From positions 1 through 64,000 of the forward strand of contig NZ_FOVR01000017.1 in the NCBI RefSeq assembly GCF_900115225.1: a DNA stretch of 64,000 nucleotides. Reading direction: 5' to 3'. Source of the stretch: Cohaesibacter marisflavi. Its GTDB lineage: Bacteria > Pseudomonadota > Alphaproteobacteria > Rhizobiales > Cohaesibacteraceae. Position 1 is the stretch's first letter; the number at the start of each line of letters is the position of its first letter. The notes beneath the pieces were generated by a model. It was not told the origin of the DNA. It searched no databases and saw only the letters and a list, made by a program, of their open reading frames with translations. Position numbers and translations under genes: made by a program. Shown piece after piece: positions 5,633 through 23,459 of the stretch.

Positions 5633-6963
5633 TCACTTAAGATGTTCTGGCACGGGAAGCACAATGAGATTGTGCAAGGCCAATTTGTCTGCAAGGGTCA
5701 TATCGTCGCCGTAGAGTTCTCGGTCCCGAATGGACTTGACGCTGTGGCCCATTAATTCGCCACGGTCATCATTGGGCAGTTGAACCTTCTTTAAGCGAGA
5801 CTCAAACGCATGCCTTGTGCCACCAACAGTGTGCTTTTCTGAGGGTAAAAGGCCTTTTTCTCTCAAAGTCTTGTTTATCGCGTTGGAATAGTTGCTGTTG
5901 CCACGATACTTTGGAAATCCTTCTGGGTGCCGTTTGGCTGCTGCCAAAGCGACACCGACGAGGGGCACCTGCCGTTGAGAGGCTGTATTCTTAACCTCGC
6001 GACACATATCTCCTTCTTCCACTTGAATGTGAAGGTGCGGGATTGGATCATCCAGTACAATCGCATGTGGGGCAAATTCGAAATCTCGCTCTGACGGCAT
6101 CCGGTCTCGATTGAGATCAACAGAATATCGACTGCCTCTTGGTTGATTCCATCAAATGCACCAGGTGCGAACCACTTTTCTGTCATCCAGTTAACCGGGA
6201 TTTCAAGTTTGCGGTTGGCTTTCTCGTAACGGTCTTTTTTGATGCCAATGCCCTGATAAGTCCTCGGTGCTTGTACCATCCCGATGCTTTCGTAATAATC
6301 ACTGAGCATCGAACGCATATGGATAAAATCCTTGTTGGCTGTGTCGGGTTTTGCCTTGCCCGTAGAAACTGCCTTCTGCCAGAACATTTTGTGTTTCTGA
6401 ACAGCCGCCGCGTCGATTTCAGAAACAAGAATGTCATTGTTTCCAATTGATTTCATTAGATTTCGGACAGCCTTTTTCCGAGGGTTACGCCATTTGCGCA
6501 ATTGGTCGTCATTCTTATGCCGGTTGTCATGCCTACGGTATTCCTCGACGGTTGCAACTAATTCGGACAATCGCAAACCTGGTTCTTCAATACCGCCGAG
6601 AAGTGCTCGGGCCACCTGAATGTTATCGCCTTCCGCAAGTTTTTCGAAACGAATCAAGGTTTCTTCTAGTGGTGCCAAAAGTAGTGATCCTGACGGCAGA
6701 TAGTTGAGACCTCGCTTTTTGACAATTTCTTGCGCGGCTCGATAAGAATCCGCACAATCTGGTTGATCCTTAAGAAGCTTCAGTGCCTTCAGTTCGTCCA
6801 AGATACCCTTTCTCATCGCTGGCACCAATTCAGTCGCCTTGCGCGCGCTGTCTGTTTTCAAAGTCCGATGGATTTCTGTCTTTCCGGCAATGCCCACATA
6901 TTCTTTCGGCACCCTCATTCTGAAGTGGAAAGTGCCTTTCCCGCGTTTGATCAAACCACCCAT
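5633..6963 (-). pseudogene. Tyrosine integrase, frameshifted
   Basis: Two overlapping minus-strand frames together make one phage-type tyrosine recombinase. The first frame (6963 down to about 6070) holds the N-terminal arm and core-binding parts and the first catalytic Arg in IETGCRQSEISNL. The second (about 6070 down to 5633) holds the catalytic Lys in REVKNTASQRQVPLVG, the H/R box in HTVGGTRHAFESRL, GHS and the nucleophilic Tyr in RDRELYGD. The frames join at a run of four C on the coding strand (GGGG at 6069-6072). Adding one C restores NLPPHAIVLDDP, which fits the family. All catalytic residues survive, so this is a recent mutation, a sequencing error or a slippery site. The start at 6963 (MGGLIKRG) is preferred over 7035. 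The gene lies next to the element end. Confidence 0.85.
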
Positions 6964-7013
6964 TAATTTTACCCATTTTACCTTTGTTGCAGCGCTGCCC
7001 AGCCGACATGTGC

Positions 7014-7036
7014 TGCTACACATTTTGCTACACATT
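7014..7036. repeat. Direct repeat at the integrase 5' end, possible arm-type sites
   Basis: TGCTACACATT occurs at 7014-7024 and again at 7026-7036, one base apart. It lies between the integrase start and the tRNA-derived end. Short direct repeats in this place are typical binding sites for the N-terminal domain of a tyrosine integrase or for an excisionase. The role is inferred from position. Confidence 0.5.
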
Positions 7037-7417: not shown

Positions 7418-8281
7418 CTATGCTTCGCCCTTTTGCTGTTCGACAACAGCTTTTAGTGAAGTCGCTTTGACGAGGATGATCTTGCGGATAAATGCCGCCA
7501 GGAATAGAGCCGTCATAATGAGGATGATGGTTGGGGCAGGGGCACTATCAAGGAAGAAGCTCAAATAGGTGCCTGCAAGCATTGATGCCATACAAACAGC
7601 AACTGACACCCAAAGCATTGTACTGAACTTGCGAACCAGCAGAAAGGCGATGGCCCCCGGTGCGATGAGCAGGCCAACGGCCAGAATGAGGCCGGCGGCT
7701 GAAAGCGTCGCCACGATGGTGAGTGAGAGCAGGGTCAGCAAGCCATAATGTAACAGACTGACCGAGAGCCCTGAAACCCGGGCCTGTGCCGGATCGAAAC
7801 TGTGGAGCAACAGGTCTTTCCACTTGAGGAGCAGACTGGCTGCAACAATTGCAGAAATGACTCCGGCATTGAGCAATTCGCTGTTATCGACGCCGAGCAT
7901 ATTGCCGAATAGAACATGATCGAGATGCACGTTTGTGTGGATTGAAACATAAAGAACGATACCCACTGCAAACATGCCCGAGAAGACAACGCCCATGACT
8001 GTGTCGCGCTTGATGCGGCTGTTGGCGGACAGATAGCCGGTCGAGAGCGCGCAGACCATACCGGCCGCAAAAGCGCCAATCAGGAGCGGAAAGCTGAAGA
8101 TATAGGCCAGAACGATGCCGGGCAGAATGGCATGGCTGACGGAATCGCCCATTAGGGCCCATCCCTTGAGCACCAGAAAGCAGGAAAGGAGCGCCGTCGG
8201 CACGGAAACAATGATCGCAATCAGGAAGGCATTCTGCATGAAGCCGAACTGGAAGGGGAGGAGCAGGGTATCAAGGGGCAT
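7418..8281 (-). CDS. sitD: Manganese/iron ABC transporter permease SitD
   Basis: This inner-membrane permease belongs to the ABC-3 family (SitD/MntD type), 287 residues with about eight hydrophobic segments. Characteristic stretches are FLVLKGWALMGDSVSHAILPG and LILAVGLLIAPGAIAFLL. It would form the channel with SitC for Mn2+ or Fe2+ entry. The start at 8281 (MPLDTLLLPFQFG) lies 1 nt after the sitC stop, so the longer N-terminal reading to 8368 is rejected. It is the last gene of the sitABCD operon on the minus strand. No clear T-run terminator was found after it. Confidence 0.92.
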   Translation of the reverse strand: MPLDTLLLPFQFGFMQNAFLIAIIVSVPTALLSCFLVLKGWALMGDSVSHAILPGIVLAYIFSFPLLIGAFAAGMVCALSTGYLSANSRIKRDTVMGVVFSGMFAVGIVLYVSIHTNVHLDHVLFGNMLGVDNSELLNAGVISAIVAASLLLKWKDLLLHSFDPAQARVSGLSVSLLHYGLLTLLSLTIVATLSAAGLILAVGLLIAPGAIAFLLVRKFSTMLWVSVAVCMASMLAGTYLSFFLDSAPAPTIILIMTALFLAAFIRKIILVKATSLKAVVEQQKGEA

Positions 8282-8282
8282 G

Positions 8283-9173
8283 TCACGCGTCTTTCCGCTC
8301 TGCAGCCAGTGGTTCATCATACCTTGCAACGGCCTTTCTGGCCTTGCGTTTGGCTGCCAGCAATCCATGTTTTGGCGCCAGCAGAAAAGCGATCAGGAAA
8401 AGCAGCGTTTGCAGGGTAACGATCACACCACCAGTGGCGCCATCCAGAAAATAGCTGATATAGGCACCGAAAAATCCGGTCAGGGCTCCAATGATGATTG
8501 CGGTGATGATAAGCCGTGGGAACCGGTCGCAGAACAGATAGGCCGTTGCGCCGGGGGTGACGACCATGGCGATCACAAGGAAAGCTCCCACTGTCTGCAT
8601 CGCCGCTACCACCGAGGCAGAAAGCAGCACAAAGAAGATCGCCTTGAGCAATGGCGGATTGAGGCCGATGGTGCGGGCGTGGCTTTCATCAAAGAAGGTG
8701 ACCATCAGGTCTTTCCATTTGGCCGTCAGGATGATGAGCGAAATGATACCGATGAGCGCGAGCTGCAGGGTATCTTCTGGTGTGATGGCGAGAATGTTGC
8801 CCATGGTGATGGTCTGAATGCTGATGGACATCGGGTTGATGGACACCATGAACAGACCGAGCCCGAAGAAGGACGTAAAAATCAGTCCGATGATGACGTC
8901 GATTTTGAGCCCTGAGCGTTCAGACAGAAAGAGCATGCTGCCTGCTGCAAGGCCACCAGCAATGAAAGCGCCAAGAGCAAAGGGCAGACCAAGCATATAA
9001 GCGCCTGCCACGCCGGGCACCACCGAGTGGGACAAGGCATCTCCAATCAGCGACCAGCCCTTGAGCATGAGAAAGGCCGACAAGAAGGCACAGACACACC
9101 CCACAAGGGCCGAAACCCACATGGCGTTTGTCATATAGCCATAGCCAAAGGGCTCGAGAAGGAACTCCATCAT
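8283..9173 (-). CDS. sitC: Manganese/iron ABC transporter permease SitC
   Basis: This is an ABC-3 family permease of 296 residues with about eight membrane segments. It contains [22 protein letters not shown] and [18 protein letters not shown]-like sequence near residues 190-215, the family hallmark shared with SitD. It starts at 9173 and overlaps the sitB stop by 4 nt (ATGA), a sign of translational coupling. The C-terminal tail is basic and cytosolic. With SitD it forms the membrane part of a SitABCD importer for Mn2+ and possibly Fe2+. Confidence 0.93.
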
Positions 9174-10063
9174 TGCTCCTCCTCACTTATCATTGTTTTC
9201 TGGCCATATTGCACAAAGGGTCGTTCGTCATCAGAAAGAATGGTAACCTCTCGCCCGTCCTTATCTTCATGCAAGTTTTGGCCCCCCAATGTGAAATGGC
9301 GTAGCACGCCACCAAAGGCTTGTTCCAAGTTCGTGCGGGTGAACGTGGTCTCGGTCGGGCCATAGCCCAGCACCGTGCCTTTGACCAACACGGTTCGGTC
9401 GCAGAATTCAGGCACCGAGCCCAGATTGTGAGTTGATACCAGCATCACGCGTCCTTCTTCGCGCAAGGAACGCAACAGGGCGATGATCTGGTCTTCTGTT
9501 TTGACATCAACGCCGGTGAAGGGCTCGTCTAGCAATATGACCATTCCATTCTGGGCGAGAGCCCTAGCCAGAAACACCCGTTTGCGCTGACCGCCTGAAA
9601 GCTCCCCGATCTGCCGTTTGCGAAAGTCCTGCATATTGACGCGATCAAGTGCTTCATTCACGGCGTCATGATCTGCCTTTTTGGGGCGGCGCAGAAAGCC
9701 CATATGGCCATAGCGCCCCATCATCACAACATCTTCCACCAATACGGGGAAGGCCCAGTCTACCTCTTCAGCCTGCGGCACATAGGCAACAAGATTGCGC
9801 TTCAACGCCTGCTTGATGGGAAGCCCCCAAAGGGAAATCGTGCCCGCAGCCACCGGCACAAAGCCCATGATGGCTTTGAATAAGGTGGATTTTCCCGATC
9901 CATTCACCCCCACCAGCGCTGTGATGGTGCCCGTCGGCGTTTCAAAGGATGCATCATGCAGCGCGGTGTGTCCGTTGCGATAGGTTACCGTGACACCGTG
10001 AGCCGAAATGCCGCCCCCCTCAAGAGGGGCTGATGTGCCGGGGAGCTGGTTGTCAAAAGTCAT
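9170..10063 (-). CDS. sitB: Manganese/iron ABC transporter ATPase SitB
   Basis: This ATP-binding subunit of 297 residues shows Walker A (GVNGSGKST), Q-loop region ([14 protein letters not shown]), signature (LSGGQRKR), Walker B (MVILLDEP) and switch His (STHN). The DWAFP stretch after the Q-loop is typical of metal-type (SitB/MntB) ATPases. The start at 10063 (MTFDNQLPG) lies 1 nt after the sitA stop, matching the tight spacing elsewhere in the operon; a start 24 nt earlier is possible. A C-terminal extension of about 35 acidic residues follows the ABC core. Confidence 0.93.
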
Positions 10064-10064
10064 G

Positions 10065-10979
10065 TCAGTCCAGAAGTCCTTTGGCAACGGTGCTCGATGT
10101 GACGCGGAGCAGATCGAGATAGGTTGGCACGGGCCCTCCGGCTTCGCTTAATGAATCGACATAAAGCTCTCCGCCATAGCGACTGCCGGTTTCGCGCGCC
10201 ACCTGTTTGGCAGGCGATGTGTTCACCGTGCTCTCGCAGAAGACAACCGGAATGTGGTTCTGTTTCACCCCATCAATGACTTTCTTGACCTGCTTCGGGG
10301 TGCCGATCTGATCGGCGTTCATGGGCCAGAGATAGAGTTCTTTCATGCGGAAGTCGCGGGCGAGATAGCTGAAAGCTCCTTCGCAGGTTACAAGCCATCG
10401 TTTGTCTTCAGGAATCTTGGAGATCATGTCGCGTAAAGGCTCAAGCGTGCTGCGAAGCTCGTCTTTGTACGCTGCTGCGTTGCGGACATAGATCTCCGCG
10501 TTCTCTGGATCATGCTCAGCAAATGCCTCAAGGATATTGTCGATATAGATCAGTGCATTATCGAGCCCCATCCATGCATGCGGGTTTGGCTTTCCCTCAT
10601 AGTCGCCTTCGGCAATGGAGATCGGCTTTATGCCTTTCGATAAGGTTGCCGAGGGGACCTCTCCCAGCTGGCCGACAAATTGTTCGAACCAGCGTTCCAG
10701 ATTCAGGCCGTTCCAGAGAATGAGATCCGCGTTATGGGCGCGCACGATGTCTTGCGGTGTTGGCTCATAGCCGTGAATTTCTGCTCCGGGCTTGGTAATC
10801 GATACGACCTCAGCGGCATCTCCGGCGACATTTGAAGCCATGTCTGCCAGCACCGTGAAAGTGGTAACCACTTTCATTTTCTCCGCGGCATGAGCAAATG
10901 ATGAGGCGGCGGTGCTCAATAGGGCCGATGCAAAGAAAGATAGGATTGCTGTTTTAAAATGCCGTTTTGAAAGGGGCAT
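10065..10979 (-). CDS. sitA: Manganese/iron-binding periplasmic protein SitA
   Basis: This cluster A-1 metal-binding lipoprotein-like receptor (304 residues) delivers Mn2+ or Fe2+ to SitBCD. A signal peptide with cleavage near AHA-AEK is seen, without a lipobox Cys, so the protein is probably free in the periplasm. Expected metal ligands are visible: His in [13 protein letters not shown], His in NPHAWMG, Glu in [10 protein letters not shown] and Asp in [11 protein letters not shown]. The start at 10979 (MPLSKRHF) is set by CAGGAG 6-7 nt upstream; the longer reading to 11033 would bury the signal peptide. It is the first gene of the operon. Confidence 0.94.
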
Positions 10980-11010
10980 TGAGGGCTCCTGTCTCGAGAT
11001 AGTCTGAATA

Positions 11011-11032
11011 TTGCGAATGACTTGCAATTGCA
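11011..11032. promoter_or_regulatory. Candidate Mur/Fur-type operator of sitABCD
   Basis: TTGCGAATGACTTGCAA (11011-11027) is a TTGC-N9-GCAA dyad, and it overlaps the perfect palindrome TGCAATTGCA (11023-11032). It lies about 32-53 bp upstream of the sitA start. Rhizobial sit operons are repressed by the Fur-family protein Mur through TGCAA-rich dyads, so this site fits. The exact consensus could not be tested. Confidence 0.5.
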
Positions 11033-11161
11033 TTAGGGCATTATATTTTTGATATTTGCAAGTTTATAAGGCTCGGAGCAGGTGAAAAACTGGGGAAATG
11101 CGGGGAATATAGCCTTGGCTTTAAAATCGGAGACTTATTTCACTGTCAATTCTTCAAATGA

Positions 11162-11300: not shown

Positions 11301-11864
11301 TTATTGGCTCAGAATTTTTACATTGAACAGATCATCTGGCGCCGTAGCCATGAGTCTTGCAATCAAGTCCTGTTTGAAAGATTGATAGGCACTTTGTTCA
11401 GCGTCATCACCTTTGCGCGGCTGGAACCCTCGCACCATATTGCGAAATTCTTCTGTGAAATAGCCATCCACCGGCCATAGGGCAATCCGTTTTCCTTCAT
11501 ACTCGAATTCATAGTAGAAGCGTCCGATCAGAGCTTCTGGGGCCTGTTCGGGGAGCCCTTCCGTTTTTATCGTTATATTGTCAGCATTGCGTGTGCTGCC
11601 GCGAAGGACAAGCTCAATGATATCAGTGACTCCGGGGCCGGGGAAACCCACTTGCACCTTAAGTGCGTTTCTTTCGATCAAACCATCATTGGCCAATTCT
11701 GCAGAAGCCTTTTTGAGCATCTGAAACATAAGAGCCGTGGCGATGATCTGATCTGGTCCGGCATAGCGAATAAAATCCTCCCGCGTAAAAGAAAGAGGGC
11801 AATCGCCTTCTCTCAGATCCACTGTCGGTGCGTGACGTTCTCCAATGCCGTACGGATTTTTCAT
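11301..11864 (-). CDS. Hypothetical protein beside an ABC importer operon
   Basis: This 187-residue soluble protein is not recognised. It has no signal peptide and no membrane segment. Conserved-looking blocks are YAGPDQIIATALMFQMLKKA, KVQVGFPGPGVTDIIELVLR and FYYEFEYEGKRIALWPVDGYF. The chosen start (MKNPYGIGERHAP) is 51 nt inside the longest frame; neither start has a clear ribosome site. It is divergent from the two ThuA-like genes and shares their dyad-bearing promoter region, so it probably belongs to the same functional unit as the importer. It could be an enzyme or an adaptor; nothing in the sequence decides this. Confidence 0.72.
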   Translation of the reverse strand: MKNPYGIGERHAPTVDLREGDCPLSFTREDFIRYAGPDQIIATALMFQMLKKASAELANDGLIERNALKVQVGFPGPGVTDIIELVLRGSTRNADNITIKTEGLPEQAPEALIGRFYYEFEYEGKRIALWPVDGYFTEEFRNMVRGFQPRKGDDAEQSAYQSFKQDLIARLMATAPDDLFNVKILSQ

Positions 11865-11930
11865 TTTGAGTGTTTTCCCATATCGCTGTTGACAAAATTT
11901 GAGTTTTTTATACAAGAATATCGATAAATA

Positions 11931-11960
11931 ATATGAGTTAGGAACTCAAGATAAAATAAT
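11931..11960. promoter_or_regulatory. TGAGT-N5-ACTCA dyad, copy 1
   Basis: ATATGAGT-N5-ACTCAAGA, with TGAGT at 11934-11938 and ACTCA at 11944-11948, lies in the divergent promoter region between the unknown gene and the first ThuA-like gene. It is followed by ATAATTCA. The same arrangement recurs at 13321-13347 before the permease genes, which points to a shared regulator. Confidence 0.55.
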
Positions 11961-11990
11961 TCATTTCAACGCACTTGCGAAAGAGAGCCA

Positions 11991-12632
11991 ATGGCAAAGT
12001 CACAAGGACGTTTTCTGTTCGTCGACAATACTGCTGTAGGATTGGCTGCCCTTCCGCCCCGCTTGGATCGTCATCGGGTCGATGTTCTGCAGCAATATGA
12101 GATCGATCGTCTGAACTGGGCTGTCTATGACGCGGTCATTCTGACTATCCATGCAGATCAGATTCATCTGATGGAGTTGAAGGACAAGTTCGAAAGCTAT
12201 CTGGCATGCGGTGGGACGGTCCTGTTCAACGGCCATGTGGTGCAGCCTTTCCTGCCAGAACTCACCCGCTTTCAGCCGCTGCCAAAGCGCGGAAGAAACG
12301 ATCTTATCGTTCATCGCGAAGCGGATCATCCTGCGTTTGACGGCATCACTGGTGAGCTATTGTCATTCAGAAAAGGCGTATCTGGTTTTTATGGCCGCGG
12401 GATGAATCCACCTCCTGAGGGAGCCTTTGTCGTCAACAGCATCGGTGCGGACCATTGGCCGCTTGACTGGGTTGTCGAGCGCGAGGGCGGTGGGCGCATT
12501 TTCGTTCATGCTGGCAATGATATCTGGGGGGTTCTGATGATCGGTTCTCCGGGAAATCTGCCTTACGTTCAACGCTTCTTCGACTGGCTGAGCGAAAGCT
12601 CAAGCCTGAAAGATACGATCGTAGCTGTGTGA
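11991..12632 (+). CDS. ThuA/class I amidotransferase-like protein, paralogue 1
   Basis: This cytosolic protein of 213 residues has a Rossmann-like start (GRFLFVDNTAVGLAALPPRL) and the block YDAVILTIHADQIHLMELKDKFESYLACGGTVLFNGHVVQPFLPEL. That alternation resembles the ThuA/class I glutamine amidotransferase-like fold, in which a strand is followed by a helix ending in aGG and a further strand. No catalytic Cys of a true amidotransferase is visible. Ribosome site AAAGAGAG precedes the ATG. It is followed 25 nt later by a paralogue and then by ABC importer genes, so it probably acts on the imported compound. The fold assignment is inference. Confidence 0.7.
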   Translation: MAKSQGRFLFVDNTAVGLAALPPRLDRHRVDVLQQYEIDRLNWAVYDAVILTIHADQIHLMELKDKFESYLACGGTVLFNGHVVQPFLPELTRFQPLPKRGRNDLIVHREADHPAFDGITGELLSFRKGVSGFYGRGMNPPPEGAFVVNSIGADHWPLDWVVEREGGGRIFVHAGNDIWGVLMIGSPGNLPYVQRFFDWLSESSSLKDTIVAV

Positions 12633-12657
12633 CTGGCCCTTTGAGAAGGATTTTTCG

Positions 12658-13293
12658 ATGATGACTATCGAGCAAGCCCCCCAGAAGAAATCCATCGCAG
12701 CGATTGATGGTGGATTCTCTTATCACCATCAATCCTTACGGTGTGAGCCGTTTGCGCACTTCTTCGATGAGGTCATCTATATCAGGGATGTTCCTCTTAC
12801 CGATCTGACACAGTTCGGAACGCTCATCATTCCATGCAGAACGAACGCGTTTCATCTCGCTCCGCTATCGGAGCAGTTTCAAAGTTACATGAAAGCCGGA
12901 GGCAGGCTGGTCGTGATGGGGGAAACTTTCCCCGATCGGTGGTTGCCAAACATCAGTTTCACAGGGATGGAAACGAATTTCTGGTGGTGGCTTGAGAAAG
13001 GGGCCGATCTTGGTGTGCGGATCGTAGACACCAATCATCCCATGTCGGCCCATGTCACCAAGGAGGGCGCGACGTGGCATCTGCACGGAACATTGGATCC
13101 TCTGACTAAGAACCAGCAAAGCTTGATCGCTTCGCAGAATGGCGAATGCCTGATGTTTGAAGATGTATCAAGTTACGCCCCCGGCACCCTGCTCGTGACC
13201 ACACTTGATCCATTCTATCATCATGGCTGTCATTTCATGCCTGCGACAACGGTATTTCTGGACAGGTTCCTCACCTGGCTTTCGGAAGGTTAG
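12658..13293 (+). CDS. ThuA/class I amidotransferase-like protein, paralogue 2
   Basis: This 211-residue protein shares the layout of the preceding gene: a short N-terminal strand, FGTLIIPCRTNAFHLAPLSEQF, then MKAGGRLVVMGETFPDRWLP. It also has WHLHGTLDPL and a His-rich LDPFYHHGCHFMPA. AAGGA lies about 8 nt upstream of the ATG; a second ATG at 12661 is equally possible. The pair probably arose by tandem duplication and diverged strongly. No catalytic triad is obvious. The gene ends 84 bp before the first permease gene, and that gap holds a strong nested inverted repeat. Confidence 0.7.
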   Translation: MMTIEQAPQKKSIAAIDGGFSYHHQSLRCEPFAHFFDEVIYIRDVPLTDLTQFGTLIIPCRTNAFHLAPLSEQFQSYMKAGGRLVVMGETFPDRWLPNISFTGMETNFWWWLEKGADLGVRIVDTNHPMSAHVTKEGATWHLHGTLDPLTKNQQSLIASQNGECLMFEDVSSYAPGTLLVTTLDPFYHHGCHFMPATTVFLDRFLTWLSEG

Positions 13294-13296
13294 AAG

Positions 13297-13368
13297 CGGA
13301 TCTGGACAAAGTGAATTAAATATGAGTATAAAACTCAAGAATAATTCAACCATCTGTCTCCAGATCCG
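13297..13368 (+). promoter_or_regulatory. Nested inverted repeat between ThuA-like and permease genes
   Basis: Outer arms CGGATCTGGA (13297-13306) and TCCAGATCCG (13359-13368) are perfectly complementary. Inside, GAATTA pairs with TAATTC, and innermost TGAGT (13323-13327) pairs with ACTCA (13333-13337). The right outer arm ends 9 nt before the permease ATG, where a ribosome site would be and none is visible. It may act as an mRNA processing or translation-control element, and the innermost part is the second copy of the dyad seen at 11931. Confidence 0.6.
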
Positions 13369-13377
13369 ATATTTCTT

Positions 13378-14316
13378 ATGGCGATCCAACTTTTCCAGCG
13401 CCTCGTCCAGGCTGTGATCTTATTGTTTGTAATTTCTATCGTCGGGTTTGCCTTGCTGCGCCTGCTTCCGGGGGATTTCGCAGAGGTGCTGCTCCTTGCT
13501 CAGATGGATGGAACCCTGCCGGACCCGGCCACTGTCACGCAATTTGCACAAGACAATGGCTTCAATGATCCTATGCCAGTGCAATATTGGCACTGGCTGA
13601 CAGATGCGCTGGGTGGTGACCTTGGGCAATCGTTCATTACAGGCGAGGCTGTTTCGAGCGACATGGCCCTTCGTATCAGCCGCTCGCTATTTCTTGGTGT
13701 CACATCACTGGCAACAGCATTGATACTAGCCATTCCAATCGGCTTTTTCTGCGCCACTCATACGGGTGGATGGATCGACAGAGCCCTGACCGCCTTGAGT
13801 GTGGTGGGCATGTCCATTCCCAATTTCTGGCTGGCGCTTTTGATGGCGTTGTTCTTCTCGCTTTTCCTCGATCTTTTGCCAAGTTCCGGCCATGGCACAC
13901 TGGCACACGTGGTTCTTCCTGCGTTGGTTATCGCAACGTCGGTTACCGGTGTCATTGCGCGCTTTGTCCGCGCGCGCCTGCTTGACGAGCTGTCGCAGGA
14001 TTATGTCCGCACAGCTAATGCCAAGGGAATGGGGCGGCTTCGCATTCTCTTGAGCCACGTGGTGCCGAACATCTTGCCATCAACGCTGACGCTGACCGGG
14101 CTACAGTTTGCCAAGATTTTCGATGGCATGATTGTGGTCGAAACCATTTTTGCCTGGCCCGGAATCGGCAGTCTGCTGGTTGAATCCCTGTTCAACAGAG
14201 ACTATCCGCTCATCCAGATGTGCTTTCTTGTGATCGCGTCCGGATATGTCGTTATCAATCTGGTGGTCGACTATCTGATCACGCTGATTGATCCCAGAGT
14301 GCGAGGAGCCATATAG
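13378..14316 (+). CDS. Peptide/nickel-type ABC transporter permease (DppB-like)
   Basis: This inner-membrane permease has 312 residues and six membrane segments. It starts with the family hallmark of an N-terminal helix followed by FALLRLLPGDFAEVLL and a long periplasmic loop. The EAA-type cytoplasmic loop reads DYVRTANAKGMGRLRILLSHVVPN, and the end matches the DppB/OppB pattern DYLITLIDPRVR. It pairs with the next gene to form the channel for a peptide, nickel-chelate or glycoside-type substrate. No Shine-Dalgarno is visible before the ATG. Operon: permease, permease, binding protein, all nearly abutting. Confidence 0.88.
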   Translation: MAIQLFQRLVQAVILLFVISIVGFALLRLLPGDFAEVLLLAQMDGTLPDPATVTQFAQDNGFNDPMPVQYWHWLTDALGGDLGQSFITGEAVSSDMALRISRSLFLGVTSLATALILAIPIGFFCATHTGGWIDRALTALSVVGMSIPNFWLALLMALFFSLFLDLLPSSGHGTLAHVVLPALVIATSVTGVIARFVRARLLDELSQDYVRTANAKGMGRLRILLSHVVPNILPSTLTLTGLQFAKIFDGMIVVETIFAWPGIGSLLVESLFNRDYPLIQMCFLVIASGYVVINLVVDYLITLIDPRVRGAI

Positions 14317-15183
14317 ATGCTCCGAAAAACTCCGGACAATCAATTGCGAACCCGCTCTCATTGGAGACGAATGCCGCTAAAGGGGCTGGTGTTTCTTGTC
14401 GTGGTTCTCCTGTGTATCTGGATTCCATTTTTCGCTCCTTATGATCCCCAAGCGATTGATATTCTGAACAGACTTGCAAGCCCGTCACCCAGCCATTGGC
14501 TCGGGACTGATCAGATGGGACGAGACGTCTTTGCGCGCCTTTTGTATGGGGCCCGCATTACAGTTGGCAGCGCCTTGCTTGTCGTCCTGTTTGCTGGCGG
14601 CATCGGAACGCTCATCGGTGCTCTTTCCGGCTATCTGGGAGGCTTTCTGGACAAGGTTGTCATGCGCCTGTGCGAAGGCATGTCAGTGCTCCCGGCGCTC
14701 GCAATCACCATGGTCATTGCAGGCGTTCTGGGGCTTGGTTTGTGGGCGGTCATTGTCGCGCTCATCTCGGTGCACTGGACCGAATATGCCCGACTGGTGC
14801 GCAACATGGTGATGGTGGAAAAGGCCAAGACTTACATCCAGGCAGCAGAAAGCCTGGGGGCCGGGCGCTTTCGGATCATCAGGCACCATCTATTGCCCAA
14901 TATCGCCGGGCCGCTTCTTACCATTACGGCCTTTTCCATGTCATGGGCCATTCTCTCTTTTGCAGGCCTCAGCTTTCTTGGACTTGGCGTCGAGCCCGGC
15001 ACAGCGGAATGGGGCCGTATGATTGCTGAATCCCGATCTCATCTGAGATCCCATCCTCACCTCGTTCTTGCCCCCGGGCTGGCCATCATGGCTCTCGTCA
15101 TGGCGATCAATCTGTTCGGAGACGCCTATGGCGACCGTCTGCGGGGGACACACACCAATCCACTCAAATCACGGAGATCTTGA
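14317..15183 (+). CDS. Peptide/nickel-type ABC transporter permease (DppC-like)
   Basis: This is the second permease of the importer, 288 residues. It has the OppC-type N-terminal helix, the motif HWLGTDQMGRDVFARLLYGARI of the DppC family and the EAA loop YIQAAESLGAGRFRIIRHHLLPN. The C-terminal part reads FLGLGVEPGTAEWGRMIAESR as in other DppC proteins. Its ATG follows the stop of the first permease without a gap, so the two are surely co-translated. Six membrane segments are expected. The substrate is unknown. Confidence 0.9.
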   Translation: MLRKTPDNQLRTRSHWRRMPLKGLVFLVVVLLCIWIPFFAPYDPQAIDILNRLASPSPSHWLGTDQMGRDVFARLLYGARITVGSALLVVLFAGGIGTLIGALSGYLGGFLDKVVMRLCEGMSVLPALAITMVIAGVLGLGLWAVIVALISVHWTEYARLVRNMVMVEKAKTYIQAAESLGAGRFRIIRHHLLPNIAGPLLTITAFSMSWAILSFAGLSFLGLGVEPGTAEWGRMIAESRSHLRSHPHLVLAPGLAIMALVMAINLFGDAYGDRLRGTHTNPLKSRRS

Positions 15184-16728
15184 ATGAAACTCAGGTCATT
15201 GTTTAAAGGCGTGGCGACAGCTTTGCTTGCCGTTGCAGCATTGGCGACGCCTCTGTCGGCCAGTCACGCTGACGAGGGTGATAACACCCTCACTGTCGCG
15301 ACCATGTGGGAAGCCTTGCCGCTTTCCATGAAACCACGCAGAAGCCGCTTCTTTAATGAGAGCGAGATCCTTGACACACTGGTCAAACTCGACTTTGACA
15401 TGAAGCTCATTCCCGGTCTCGCCACGTCCTGGAAAAGAGAGACGCCAACCAGCTGGCATTTCACGCTTCGTGAAGGCGTCAAATTCCATGATGGCACCGC
15501 CTTCAACGCAGCCGCTGCAAAATACTCTCTGGAACGCGTGATTGCTCTTCTGCCTTACGCTTCGGATCTCTTGAATATCAAGGATATCAAAGCTGTATCA
15601 GATACAGAACTCGCAATCGAAACCAATGCTCCCTTTGCAGCTTTGCCTAACCAATTGACCGATGCAATCACGGTTATCTATGCCCGTGCGTCCTTCGATG
15701 AAAAGGGCGCGTTTGTTAAACCGGTCGGTACTGGTCCGTGGAAGTTTGTCGACTATAAGAAGCAGGACCGGACCGTGGTCGAACGGTTCGACGGCTATTG
15801 GGGTGACGCCCCGGCACTGGACAAGATCATCTATCGCTACATTCCAGATCACAATGCGCGTGCCCTTGCGTTGGAGACGGGCGAAGTGGATTTTGTCGTA
15901 CATCTGTTGCCATCCGATGTTCAAAGAATGGAAGCCGATAAAAATTTCAAGGTCTACAAGGCGCCCAGTGCAGGCCTTTATTATGGTGCCTTCAATGCAG
16001 GTGAGATGAGCCCGTTGAATGACAGCAAGGTCCGTCAGGCCCTGAACCTGCTTGTTGATCGTGATCTGTTGGTCAAGGGTGCTCTCGACAATATCGGCAA
16101 GCCTGCCTGGAAATTCTTCCCGGACGCATTTCCATGGTCTTCGGACAAGGTTTCCAGCTACAGATTTGACCCCGAGGCAGCTGCCACCCTGCTGACCGAA
16201 GCGGGCTATGATAAGGTTGATGGCGTTTGGTCCAAGAACGGGATGCCTCTTGAGTTGCGCATCGTCAGCTACTCCAGTCGTGCCGAAATGTCTGTGATTA
16301 CCGAGACGATGGCCGCTTTGCTGGCACAAAATGGCATCAAGTCCAAGATCGAAATGTTCACTTGGGCAGGCATGCTCGATAAGGTCAAGCAGGGCGCCTA
16401 TGATGTCTCAGTTGTCTTCTGGACGCCTGAAATGACTGGTCATCCGGATTTGCATCTGAAATCCCAATTCCACTCCAAAGCCGGCCTCAACTATCAGAAC
16501 TGGGCCAATCCGGAGTTCGATGCGCTGGTGGATAAAGGGCGCGGTCTGGACGTGGGACCTGAAGCCAAGGACGTCTATATCAAGGCGCAGCAAATCCTGC
16601 AGGACGATGCACCGATCATCCCTCTCGTGCACAAGATCTATGTGGCGGCCTCAAACAACCGAATTGAGGGCTATAAGGTCCACCCTTCGGGCTTCTTCTA
16701 CAATTTCAAAGCAGTCAGCAAGAAATAG
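15184..16728 (+). CDS. ABC transporter substrate-binding protein, family 5
   Basis: This 514-residue periplasmic receptor of the peptide/nickel class has a signal peptide with likely cleavage at SHA-DEG. Family 5 hallmarks are present: LIPGLATSWKRETPTSWHFTLREGVKFHDGTAF (in parts), the VGTGPWKFVDYKKQDRTVVERF region and ADSLLVDRD-like RQALNLLVDRDLLVKGAL. It starts 1 nt after the permease stop. No ATPase gene (DppD/DppF type) follows: a terminator lies 20 nt beyond the stop. The ATPase must be encoded elsewhere or shared with another importer. The ligand is not readable from the sequence. Confidence 0.92.
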   Translation: MKLRSLFKGVATALLAVAALATPLSASHADEGDNTLTVATMWEALPLSMKPRRSRFFNESEILDTLVKLDFDMKLIPGLATSWKRETPTSWHFTLREGVKFHDGTAFNAAAAKYSLERVIALLPYASDLLNIKDIKAVSDTELAIETNAPFAALPNQLTDAITVIYARASFDEKGAFVKPVGTGPWKFVDYKKQDRTVVERFDGYWGDAPALDKIIYRYIPDHNARALALETGEVDFVVHLLPSDVQRMEADKNFKVYKAPSAGLYYGAFNAGEMSPLNDSKVRQALNLLVDRDLLVKGALDNIGKPAWKFFPDAFPWSSDKVSSYRFDPEAAATLLTEAGYDKVDGVWSKNGMPLELRIVSYSSRAEMSVITETMAALLAQNGIKSKIEMFTWAGMLDKVKQGAYDVSVVFWTPEMTGHPDLHLKSQFHSKAGLNYQNWANPEFDALVDKGRGLDVGPEAKDVYIKAQQILQDDAPIIPLVHKIYVAASNNRIEGYKVHPSGFFYNFKAVSKK

Positions 16729-16746
16729 CGAAACAAGCATAAGTTT

Positions 16747-16780
16747 GGCACACGGGCATTTTGTTCGTGTGCCAGTTTTT
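16747..16780 (+). terminator. Rho-independent terminator of the ABC importer operon
   Basis: GGCACACG (16747-16754) pairs perfectly with CGTGTGCC (16766-16773), followed by AGTTTTT. It lies about 20 nt beyond the binding-protein stop and closes the operon, which confirms that no ATPase gene belongs to it. Confidence 0.88.
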
Positions 16781-19878: not shown

Positions 19879-21156
19879 ATGGGTATCGGAACCGTTCTTC
19901 TCGTTGGCCTGATTGTGCTTGTGCTGATGGGCATGCCCGTCGCCTTTGCAATCGGTGTTGCATCTATGGCTTCCATTCTCGTGGGGAACTATAATCTGAT
20001 CGTTGTTCCCCAGAAGATCCTCGCAGGCATGGACTCCTTTCCCATGCTGGCAATCCCCTTCTTTGTGCTCGCTGGCAACCTGATGACGGGAGGTGGCATT
20101 ACTGACCGTATTCTGAGTTTCACCAAGGCGACGATGGGATGGATGCGCGGCAGTCTGGGCATCGTCACGGTTATCGCCTCTGCGATTTTCGCAGCCATTT
20201 CCGGCTCAGGCACGGCAACGGTAACAGCCATCGGTGGCATCACCATTCCTGCCATGAAAAAGGAAGGCTACCCGCCTGAATTATCTGCGGCCATTGCTGC
20301 CAGTGCTTCCACCGTCGGCCCTCTTATCCCACCGAGCATCATTCTGATCGTTTATGGCAACTCGGTGCAGACATCCATTCGCGAGCTGTTCATGGCGGCA
20401 GTCATTCCTGGCGTCATGCTTGTTCTGGGGTTTCTGGGCTACACCTATTACAAGGCCCGCAGTCTTAATCTGCCTGTCGGCAAAAAATTGGACCATAAGG
20501 AAGTCTGCCGTGAAACGAAACGCAGCTTCTGGGCTCTGTTGATGCCGATTATCATTCTGGGTGGTATCTTTGGTGGTGTTTTTACCCCCACAGAAGCGGC
20601 GGCCGTCTCTGCGGTCTATGCCTTCATCATCGGCATCTTCGTCTATCGAAATCTGACGCTGAAGAGCATCAACCGGATCTTTTATGATAGCTGTATTGTT
20701 TCAACGATCATGCTGTTTCTGGTTGGTTGTTCCAAGACTTCCAGTTGGGTCCTGGCCATGGGACGTGTTCCTGAAGCCATCGCATCCAATCTGCTTTCGG
20801 TGACCGACCAGCCCGTTTTGCTGCTACTGCTGCTCAACGTTTTCCTCCTGATTGTCGGCATGTTCATGGAAGCAAACGTGGCTGTTGTGATCTTCACTCC
20901 CATCCTGCTGCCCATTGCCATGGCCTGTGGCCTCAGCGTCGTCCAGTTTGGTGTCGTGATGTGCTTCAACCTTTGCCTTGGATTAATCACCCCGCCGGTT
21001 GGTCTATGCGCATTGCTTGGGAACAATATCGCTGAAGGGAGGCTGGAGCTTACCTTACGCTACTGTGCCAGCCTGTTCCTCGTCGGCGCCGTCATTCTGA
21101 TGTGCACGACCTATATACCAGCCATGACCACCTGGCTGCCGAGCATTTTGAAATAA
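19879..21156 (+). CDS. dctM: TRAP transporter large permease DctM
   Basis: This is the ion-coupled permease of 425 residues with about twelve hydrophobic segments. Family marks include AIPFFVLAGNLMTGGGITDRI, AAISGSGTATVTAIGGITIPAMKKEGYP, STVGPLIPPSIILIVYG and FGGVFTPTEAAAVSAVYAF. It works with DctP and DctQ in sodium-driven uptake. It starts 2 nt after the dctQ stop. The class II aldolase gene begins about 90 bp further on. Confidence 0.95.
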   Translation: MGIGTVLLVGLIVLVLMGMPVAFAIGVASMASILVGNYNLIVVPQKILAGMDSFPMLAIPFFVLAGNLMTGGGITDRILSFTKATMGWMRGSLGIVTVIASAIFAAISGSGTATVTAIGGITIPAMKKEGYPPELSAAIAASASTVGPLIPPSIILIVYGNSVQTSIRELFMAAVIPGVMLVLGFLGYTYYKARSLNLPVGKKLDHKEVCRETKRSFWALLMPIIILGGIFGGVFTPTEAAAVSAVYAFIIGIFVYRNLTLKSINRIFYDSCIVSTIMLFLVGCSKTSSWVLAMGRVPEAIASNLLSVTDQPVLLLLLLNVFLLIVGMFMEANVAVVIFTPILLPIAMACGLSVVQFGVVMCFNLCLGLITPPVGLCALLGNNIAEGRLELTLRYCASLFLVGAVILMCTTYIPAMTTWLPSILK

Positions 21157-21248
21157 ACAAGATATTGGACAACCGCCCAGCCGTCGGAACCACGCGCGAA
21201 CCAATGGAAATCGCGCGCCGACAGCTGACGGGCGTCAAGGAATCCAAA

Positions 21249-21869
21249 ATGGAAGCGTCTAAAACTCTGTCTGACTTCATCGCCCTGTGCCACAAGATAT
21301 ATGCCCACGATTTCGTGCCCGGATCAGGAGGCAATGCGAGTATTCGCCTTGGTGACAGGATCGTCATAACGCCCTCGGGGATCAGTCTTGGCAAACTTGA
21401 AGAAACGGACCTTGTGTCCATCGCCATGGATGGCTCGGTCATCGGCAAAGGGAAACCTTCAAAAGAGTGGCGAATGCACATGAATTGTTATGAACGTGCC
21501 GATGTCAATGCGGTCATTCATGTTCATAGCCCTTACGCTGTCGCCATTGCTTGCCTGAAGGAGCTCGACACCACCTGCGCTATGCCGGTCTATACGCCGG
21601 GCTATTCGGTGCGCGTGGGTGCGCTGCCCGTCGTGCCCTATTATCGTGCAGGTTCGACCGAGCTCGCCGACAGTATCATCGCCATCATGGCGCATCGCAA
21701 TTCACTTCTGTTAGAAAATCATGGTCTGCTCACCGTCGGTGTAACCATGGATCAGGCCTTTAATCTGGTGGAGGAAGTCGAGGAGAACGCTCACTTGCAC
21801 TTTACTCTAGGCGGGGCGGGTAAACCCCTGACCAGAGAACAGCAGGAAGATTTGACCGGCAAATACTGA
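21249..21869 (+). CDS. Class II aldolase (fuculose-phosphate aldolase-like)
   Basis: This zinc-dependent aldolase or epimerase of the AraD/FucA family has 206 residues. GSGGNASIRLGDRIVITPSG supplies the phosphate/substrate loop, VIHVHSPYAVAIA the first metal His pair and LENHGLLTVG the third His. The start at 21249 (MEASKTLSD) follows AAGGA by 8 nt; a longer reading into the permease gene is rejected. With the kinase just downstream it should cleave a ketose 1-phosphate or sugar-acid phosphate to a triose or two-carbon aldehyde. The exact sugar cannot be given. Confidence 0.87.
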   Translation: MEASKTLSDFIALCHKIYAHDFVPGSGGNASIRLGDRIVITPSGISLGKLEETDLVSIAMDGSVIGKGKPSKEWRMHMNCYERADVNAVIHVHSPYAVAIACLKELDTTCAMPVYTPGYSVRVGALPVVPYYRAGSTELADSIIAIMAHRNSLLLENHGLLTVGVTMDQAFNLVEEVEENAHLHFTLGGAGKPLTREQQEDLTGKY

Positions 21870-21908
21870 TCATCTGTGACAACCAAAACAACAGGAAAGA
21901 AAAATAAG

Positions 21909-23459
21909 ATGGTCACGCAAATGAACCGCCCCATTGTGCTCGGTATCGATATTGGAACCACCGGAACCAAATGTAGCTTCTATGATTTGGAATGCAATCT
22001 CGTTGCAAGTGAATATCAGGAATATCCAATGATCCATCCCCGCGAGGGATGGGTTGAAGAAGACCCGAATGTCTGGTGGGCCAGCGTCGTCCGCAATGTC
22101 AAACTCTGCATCGATCGCGGGGATGTCGATCCTATTGAAGTGGCTGGTATTGGCGTCAGTTGCACCAATTCCTTTATTCCTCTCGACCGGGAAGGCAACA
22201 ATCTTTACAACGCGATCCTTCAGCTTGATCAGCGCTCGGCAAGCGAAGTGAAATGGCTTGAAGACACCATCGGCCGGGACCGAATCTACGAAATTACCGG
22301 CAACCGCATTGCCAGGGGTACATTCGCCCTTCCAACCCTGCTTTGGTATCTCAAGAACCGCCCAGACATCATTGAGAAGACGCACAAATTTGTCGTTCCC
22401 AGCGGCTTTATCATCAATAAACTGACCGGAGAATTCTCTATTAACACCTCTCGGATGGGGTTCACTCTTCTTTCCAACATTCGCACCGGTGAGTGGGACG
22501 AAGGGCTGGCTAGAGATACAGGTGTTCCAATCGATAAACTGCCCAAGCCCTACAATGCTTCGGACATTGTGGGGCATGTTACGTCGTGGGCTGCGGCGCA
22601 ATGTGGGCTGAGAGAAGGCACGCCTGTTATCGCCGGCTCCATGGACACTGTATCGGCGGCAATCGGTGCAGGAGCGATCCTCCCCGGGGATACCTTCCTT
22701 GCCATAGGTACTTGTGGACGGGCCTGCTTTACCAGTGAAACCCCGCTTTTTGACGATCGATTGATGAATTGCCGACATGCTGTCGAAGGCCAGTGGTTGA
22801 GCGTGGAAGCAACCAACGCAGCGGGCGCATCGCTAAGATGGTTTCGCGACCAGTTCGGGGAGGCTCTTGAAAAGCGCTGTCATGAGGAAGGTTGTTCCAT
22901 CTATGAGATGCTGGACAAGGTGGCCGAGGAAGCAGATGCCGGGTCCAATGGTGTTATCTATCTCCCCTACCTATCGGGCGAACGATGCCCGATCTGGGAT
23001 CCCAATGCCCGCGGCGTCATGTTTGGCCTTAGCTTTGGCACAAGCTATGGAGACATGGTCCGCGCGATTATGGAAGGTGTGGCCTATTCCATTCGTCAGG
23101 GCATGAAGATTGTTCTCAAGCATAATGACAAACCCAAGACCCTGTCGCTTGGCGGCGGTATTGCCAACAGTCGCATCTGGTGTCAGATTTTTGCGGACAT
23201 CCTCAATGAGCCGATTGTCCGATTGCGAGTTAGTGAGACCGAGACGCTGGGGGCTGCCATTCTGGCAGCAAAGGGAGTGGGTTTGATTGACACTCTGGAC
23301 AAGATGACCGGATACACAACCCAGAACTGTGAAGTCGTCCAGCCGAACAACGAAGCCTCCAGCATTTATGACGACTATTTTGTCCTTTATGAAAAGCTCT
23401 ATGACGATCTGAAGGACAATTTCGTTGCAGCACAAACAATAAAAGACCAACACGGCTAG
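21909..23459 (+). CDS. FGGY-family carbohydrate kinase
   Basis: This ATP-dependent sugar or polyol kinase has 516 residues. The N-terminal phosphate-1 loop reads VLGIDIGTTGTKCSFYD, and the C-terminal ATP site is LSLGGGIANSRIWCQIFADIL followed by ETLGAAILAA. The closest known groups by pattern are xylulokinase/ribulokinase-like members. The start at 21909 (MVTQMNRP) follows AGGA; an upstream GTG has no ribosome site. It ends the GntR-TRAP-aldolase operon, so import, phosphorylation and aldol cleavage of one sugar are encoded together. Confidence 0.9.
   Translation: MVTQMNRPIVLGIDIGTTGTKCSFYDLECNLVASEYQEYPMIHPREGWVEEDPNVWWASVVRNVKLCIDRGDVDPIEVAGIGVSCTNSFIPLDREGNNLYNAILQLDQRSASEVKWLEDTIGRDRIYEITGNRIARGTFALPTLLWYLKNRPDIIEKTHKFVVPSGFIINKLTGEFSINTSRMGFTLLSNIRTGEWDEGLARDTGVPIDKLPKPYNASDIVGHVTSWAAAQCGLREGTPVIAGSMDTVSAAIGAGAILPGDTFLAIGTCGRACFTSETPLFDDRLMNCRHAVEGQWLSVEATNAAGASLRWFRDQFGEALEKRCHEEGCSIYEMLDKVAEEADAGSNGVIYLPYLSGERCPIWDPNARGVMFGLSFGTSYGDMVRAIMEGVAYSIRQGMKIVLKHNDKPKTLSLGGGIANSRIWCQIFADILNEPIVRLRVSETETLGAAILAAKGVGLIDTLDKMTGYTTQNCEVVQPNNEASSIYDDYFVLYEKLYDDLKDNFVAAQTIKDQHG

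Follow-up and report, generated by a model that had tools for sequence, protein, structure and literature searches.

Results

Gene content of the cassette and its surroundings

The window analyzed here is a stretch of 64,000 nucleotides of Cohaesibacter marisflavi. An ORF check of the window confirmed the six ORFs of a cassette at the positions given by an initial annotation, which had been made from the sequence alone. The genes and features are as follows.

11301 to 11864, minus strand: FmdE-like gene; the ORF reaches a TTG at 11915, and the probable start is the ATG at 11864
11931 to 11951, no strand: operator 1, ATATGAGTTAGGAACTCAAGA, in the divergent gap between the FmdE-like and ThuA1 genes; core TGA-N9-TCA; exact palindrome match
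11991 to 12632, plus strand: ThuA1, GATase/ThuA-fold paralogue (family alignment and family HMM)
12658 to 13293, plus strand: ThuA2, GATase/ThuA-fold paralogue (alignment and predicted model)
13320 to 13340, no strand: operator 2, ATATGAGTATAAAACTCAAGA, upstream of permB; exact palindrome match
13378 to 14316, plus strand: permB, OppB/NikB-type permease (PF00528, E 3.5e-44; PF19300)
14317 to 15183, plus strand: permC, OppC/NikC-type permease (PF00528, E 8.8e-33)
15184 to 16728, plus strand: SBP5, family 5 substrate-binding protein (PF00496, SBP_bac_5, E 4.3e-87)
16745 to 16775, plus strand: intrinsic terminator, a 14-pair stem and T tail directly 3' of the SBP5 gene

The permB, permC, and SBP5 genes abut, and by Pfam their products are the family 5 binding protein and the two OppB/OppC-type permeases of an Opp/Dpp/Nik importer. 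The EAA loops of permB (DYVRTANAKGMGRLRILLSHVVPN) and permC (TYIQAAESLGAGRFRIIRHHLLPN) are both intact. By inspection, SBP5 has a signal peptide, and none was seen on ThuA1, ThuA2, or the FmdE-like protein. DppA was the best solved relative of SBP5, followed by HbpA, GsiB, and NikA. Nickel-type families were the top NCBIfam models for SBP5, permB, and permC, with every score below the cut-off.

Downstream of the cassette lie a GntR regulator gene and then a TRAP transporter. Directly beside it on the other side, at 7418-11033, is a SitABCD-type Mn/Fe importer with a binding protein, an ATPase above the PRK15056 cut-off, and two ABC-3 permeases. A zinc system was considered on account of these "ZnuABC-like" neighbors and was rejected, since they are of the SitABCD type and the gene set sits elsewhere in other species. 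A candidate sigma-70 promoter at ~11889 was also rejected due to a spacing that is too short, and no riboswitches were linked to the module. Separately, a recombinase-like gene with a DUF6538 N-terminus, seemingly split into two overlapping ORFs, was seen at window positions 5633-7035.

An Opp-type importer without ATPase genes

No ABC ATPase gene was found within the cassette or downstream of it, and the sole nearby ABC ATPase (9170-10087) is part of the neighboring SitABCD-type importer. The initial annotation had described an importer lacking ATPase genes and closed by a terminator, and the Pfam matches, the hairpin, and the gene content of the unit all bear this out. OppB loci were paired by hand with ATPases from their positions. 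In G000, the genome to which the window belongs, 17 of the 18 OppB loci had an adjacent ATPase pair, as did 14/15 in the single-contig genome G003 and 8/9 in G147, and the one exception in each genome was the cassette. Every Opp-type ATPase pair of G000 adjoins an OppB gene. No orphan DppDF pair, which the initial annotation had proposed to look for, was found in G000, G003, or G147, with the reservation that a very divergent ATPase could escape the search; the only loose candidate in G000 (C28:458025) proved to be PhnK of a phn C-P lyase operon. In these three genomes, two cognate ATPases for the cassette were therefore found neither in the operon nor as an orphan pair.

The relatives of the importer in G147 and G473 have no ATPase within 20 kb. 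More generally, the stretches of ~18-20 kb inspected around the ATPase-free forms contained no ATPase; the one exception was G004, where a separate complete Opp operon adjoins the cassette. G473 has three further Opp-type permease loci (C32:87321, C23:112282, and C56:5658) without an ATPase at the threshold used. Since the cassette has no ATPase, no orphan pair was found, and the EAA loops are intact, the channel most likely runs on the borrowed ATPase pair of another importer. The initial annotation had raised this possibility. No close relative examined has an ATPase in its importer. Coupling-loop similarity, used as a pointer to the donor, gave no clear winner among 17 systems.

Predicted folds of the accessory proteins

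The divergent protein had been called unknown. Its predicted model matched the FmdE protein 2glz with a Foldseek probability of 1.00 and a Z of 13.1 over 138 residues. Compared with the three solved FmdE proteins (2glz, 2gvi, and 3d00), the model gave Z scores of 13.1, 10.9, and 10.5, and the next unrelated row had a Z of 4.6. By this model, the protein is FmdE-like and has the alpha+beta core of the FmdE fold. FHGHxC is the metal motif described for FmdE, 2glz binds Zn/Ni, and most FmdE genes adjoin metal-ion transporters (PMC2954224). The cassette protein is like this family in fold and in its neighborhood of a metal-type importer. It differs in that the C-terminal zinc finger is absent and FHGHxC is lost, with KYHGxxA at this place of the alignment in Bacilli and RYAGPDQ in the genus Cohaesibacter. 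PF02663 does not match the window protein and matches only 4/13 members of its family (best E 1.8e-5), a share that both links these proteins to FmdE and sets them apart from it.

The model of ThuA2 (pLDDT 91.5) resembled solved GATase1/ThuA-like structures, with a Z of 15.6 to 2gk3, 13.1 to 1t0b, and 12.7 to 4jqs. The model thus places the two paralogues in the class I GATase-like/ThuA fold. The name ThuA-like, given in the initial annotation, holds for the fold but finds no support in Pfam, where the ThuA family (PF06283) left the window proteins unmatched and matched 2/37 family members (best E 0.025). The alignment separates ThuA1 and ThuA2 into two distinct subfamilies. ThuA1 has the motif RKGVxGFYxRG, and ThuA2 has the conserved motifs TNFWWW, W-H-x-H-G, and D-P-x-x-H-x-G. 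No conserved Cys column, as expected for the nucleophile of class I glutamine amidotransferases, was present in the paralogue alignment. While the fold is common to the known ThuA/GATase1-like proteins, the cassette paralogues stand apart in lacking a Pfam ThuA match above the cut-off and a conserved Cys nucleophile, in being nearly always paired, and in having their own conserved His/Trp motifs.

Conservation among relatives

A search of 150 related genomes found ThuA2 in six of the same genus (G002, G003, G004, G008, G013, and G015) and in G147. The six-gene set is in the same order in G002, G003, G004, and G008 and is rearranged in G015, and in G013 the ThuA-fold pair lies beside a FecCD-type importer. 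Five other species of the genus also have the importer without an ATPase, and so do two alphaproteobacteria outside the genus, G147 and G473, whose relatives of SBP5, permB, and permC are at about 49-67% identity. Across eight genomes of three genera, the ORFs and EAA loops are intact at 52-99% identity. The flanks of the cassette vary between species and, therefore, the gene set moves as a unit. A search of plasmids with SBP5 at 1e-80 gave no match.

The initial annotation had suggested that related genomes carrying the importer without the three accessory genes would count against the set. G147 has the importer with the ThuA-fold pair. In G473, the importer (52-63% identity) lacks the pair, yet it is accompanied by two FmdE-like genes. 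G473 thus goes half of the way to the observation that would count against the set. Recurrence in those five species, together with variants in Bacilli and other Alphaproteobacteria, makes the gene set more than chance.

Also, G004 contains a 193-aa remnant of SBP5 (L082:8665-9246) with 86-90% identity to the C-terminal third of the protein. This remnant adjoins a different metal importer of the ABC-3 type, lies ~25 kb away from the intact G004 cassette, and is a trace of past rearrangement.

The ThuA-fold pair with other importers

Homologues of ThuA1 and ThuA2 are paired in nearly every locus examined and are fused in several. With or without FmdE, the pair ranges over Alphaproteobacteria, Bacilli, and one haloarchaeon. 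Its partners are importers of the Opp, FecCD, SsuA/NMT1, and Fbp types, FecCD being the most common. Complete Opp-type partners with ATPases were found in Bacilli, Paracoccaceae La6, L089, G015:C17, and L068; SsuA/NMT1-type partners in Chelatococcus, Bosea, G378, and G235; and an Fbp-type permease in the haloarchaeon. In methanotrophs, the FecCD importers of the pair adjoin TonB siderophore receptors and HemP. The initial annotation had grouped the accessory genes with this importer in one set. They are genuine recurrent partners of ABC importers in the genus, in Bacilli, and in other Alphaproteobacteria, but in relatives the pair is mostly found beside FecCD-type importers. The FmdE-like gene was present at 15/18 Opp-only loci with the pair and at 10/32 FecCD-only loci. 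These counts are not independent, since they include some closely related loci and count the G147 region twice.

Several of these loci have further genes. A HupE/UreJ_2 membrane protein gene (nickel/cobalt permease family) is present at L068:17431-18747 and L089:6218-7429, both with an Opp-type version that has a fused permC-ATPase-ATPase. The complete Opp-type operon of Bacilli (L044:9609-12941; also L040, L045, L050, L053, and L055) has four extra genes downstream of the ThuA pair, for an FtsE-like ATPase, an FtsX-like permease (PF18075/PF02687), a weakly PcsB-like coiled-coil protein, and an unknown protein. On plasmids of Agrobacterium vitis, Labrenzia, and Martelella (L099:11495-19362, L100:1-5266 and 20144-22652, and L101:10800-18511), a FecCD-type importer and an FmdE-like gene are directly followed by the C-P lyase genes phnG, phnH, phnJ, and in most cases phnI, and by two ATPase genes. 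A LysR gene and the fused ThuA pair adjoin them. These plasmid loci perhaps serve the uptake of metal-phosphonate chelates. A selenium link was dropped, as the LysR match in L054 was below the cut-off.

Operators and probable iron control

The palindrome ATATGAGTnnnnnACTCAAGA, with the core TGA-N9-TCA, occurs in exactly two copies in the cassette, one before each transcription unit (11931-11951 and 13320-13340). In a palindrome scan of the window, the chance was 0.32 even at 3 mismatches. These iron-type operators had no place in the initial annotation. They are conserved in G002, G003, G004, G008, and G015. A scan of eight genomes with the palindrome pattern at 2 mismatches found the same motif in G000, G002, and G003, in the gap that separates a TonB receptor gene from hemP-hemS-hmuT. 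With a matrix built from the heme sites alone, the two top-ranking sites of the 64 kb window were those of the cassette. The RirA (IRO) motif has been published as TGA-N9-TCA (PMC8822346), so the cassette promoters carry the palindrome of the RirA regulon. By this likeness, the repressor is probably RirA.

The full matrix, built partly on the cassette sites and with no sites from the stretches tested, was applied to 23 further loci of Alphaproteobacteria, almost all of which have the ThuA-fold pair. Promoter windows were drawn manually from the gene starts. In 11/23 loci, the top site fell within the importer promoter, against 0.5 expected by length. For 300 symmetric column permutations of the matrix, the mean was 2.1 and the maximum was 7. 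An IRO-like site was absent from some loci, namely those of G147, G473, Paracoccaceae, and methanotrophs.

Loci of Bacilli were scored with the 19-bp Fur consensus, at a threshold of 15 or more of 19. A Fur box (15-18 matches of 19) was found at the operon start in 20/25 loci, while shuffles gave a mean of 0.16 and a maximum of 2. Because the 25 loci are mutually related, there were fewer independent events than this count implies. An 18/19 box was also present in Paenibacillus L107.

The operators are the strongest pointer to the function of the cassette. Since its operator is the one found at the heme-uptake genes of the species, the cassette is, judging from the sequence, very probably induced by iron shortage. 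In addition, two phyla use different regulators, with RirA-form operators in one and Fur boxes in the other, which suggests iron as the common answer.

Further copies of the operator were seen at G000:C40:9681 (L157), G013:C1:1987454 (L161), and G001:C1:3533184 (L160). They lie near NMT1/SsuA-type importers, a TonB receptor, and a ZinT gene, and may be further members of the same regulon.

Discussion

The best explanation, which we consider slightly more probable than not, is that the cassette is an uptake unit, induced by iron starvation, for a ferric chelate or siderophore or for heme, with a borrowed ATPase and with the ThuA-fold pair and FmdE acting on the cargo in the cytoplasm. SBP5 would capture the iron source in the periplasm, and the channel of permB and permC would carry it inward. 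Since this channel has no ATPase of its own, it would be powered by the pair of another Opp-type system in the same cell. ThuA1, ThuA2, and the FmdE-like protein would handle the imported complex in the cytoplasm and would most likely help to free or degrade the ligand; this is the form that the processing role proposed in the initial annotation might take. In iron-rich cells, a repressor, probably RirA, would shut both transcription units at the two TGA-N9-TCA operators. Several observations speak against this explanation: the HupE/UreJ_2 genes of two relatives, the loci that lack an IRO-like site, the loss of FHGHxC in the FmdE-like protein, and, for the borrowed ATPase, the three further G473 loci and the chance that a very divergent ATPase escaped the search.

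Another possible explanation is that the cargo is a different transition metal (nickel, cobalt, or zinc), taken up as a chelate, and that control by iron merely belongs to a broader response to metals. The nickel-type NCBIfam models, although below cut-off, would fit this explanation, as would the Zn/Ni bound by 2glz and the frequent placement of FmdE genes beside metal transporters (PMC2954224). The HupE/UreJ_2 genes attached in L068 and L089, both of them Opp-type relatives, also lend nickel or cobalt some probability. However, the Bacilli Fur boxes and the operator common to heme uptake point to iron, and most partner importers are of the FecCD type, some of them beside siderophore receptors, so we regard a different metal as unlikely. 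The cargo could also be heme specifically, as in the DppBCDF route of E. coli, which is a narrower case of iron uptake. The operator common to the heme locus and the presence of HbpA among the relatives of SBP5 agree with this, but the genome already has heme uptake of the HemP/HemS/HmuT type, and in other genomes, partners of the FecCD and Fbp types hint at ferric chelates. A dedicated heme importer is therefore improbable.

An importer for an organic nutrient, such as a peptide, opine, phosphonate, or glycoside, might be incidentally under iron control, with the ThuA-fold pair as a catabolic enzyme. DppA is the closest solved structure to SBP5, ThuA-like folds occur in sugar metabolism, and three relatives adjoin phnGHIJ-type genes. 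It is hard to reconcile such a role with the same pair accompanying four unrelated importer types, or with iron-type operators in two phyla, and we think it rather unlikely. Last, the importer could be a relic that no longer transports, its ATPase genes having been lost. The lack of an ATPase in the ~18-20 kb around the ATPase-free forms, the separate Opp operon of G004 excepted, could be read in this way, but eight genomes from three genera have intact reading frames and EAA loops, at 52-99% identity, and the operators are conserved, making a relic very improbable.

The cassette can be compared with several known systems. It shares the family 5 binding protein, the two BPD_transp_1 permeases, and the intact EAA loops with importers of the Opp/Dpp/Nik type, which take up peptides, nickel, heme, and opine metallophores. 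Unlike them, it has no DppD/DppF-type ATPases, with no orphan ones in the genome, and it adds the FmdE-like and ThuA-fold genes and the iron-type operators. MsiK and MsmX are shared ATPases of sugar importers. Sharing as such is already known, for example MceG for Mce1 and Mce4 (PMC9947336). As in the MceG, MsiK, and MsmX systems, a channel without its own ATPase gene is found here in a cell with compatible ATPases, but in the open-licence literature that we searched, no Opp-type permease pair is described as sharing an ATPase in this way. The siderophore and heme uptake loci controlled by RirA or Fur have the same TGA-N9-TCA operators in Alphaproteobacteria and Fur boxes at operon starts in Bacilli, whereas the ThuA-fold pair and the FmdE-like protein are absent from the descriptions that we found. 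Among open-licence papers, we found none that links either ThuA or FmdE with iron uptake, that describes an iron-regulated module with interchangeable importers, or that describes an Opp-type importer stably without ATPases. Opp-type importers and iron regulons are already known, as are the two folds; relative to these papers, the new part is their combination.

More broadly, we tentatively suggest that ThuA1-ThuA2, often with FmdE, may form an undescribed, widely transferred cytoplasmic module that dismantles one class of iron chelates and is combined freely with unrelated ABC importers. Here it would be joined to an Opp-type channel that has permanently lost its own ATPases and runs on those of other importers. 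Two orphan folds, FmdE-like and ThuA-like, which are annotated as hypothetical or misleadingly, would thereby be tied to iron acquisition in several phyla. Also, an Opp-type permease pair is stably without its own ATPases even though the other Opp systems of the same cells nearly all keep theirs, and ATPase sharing in this large transporter family thus becomes directly testable.
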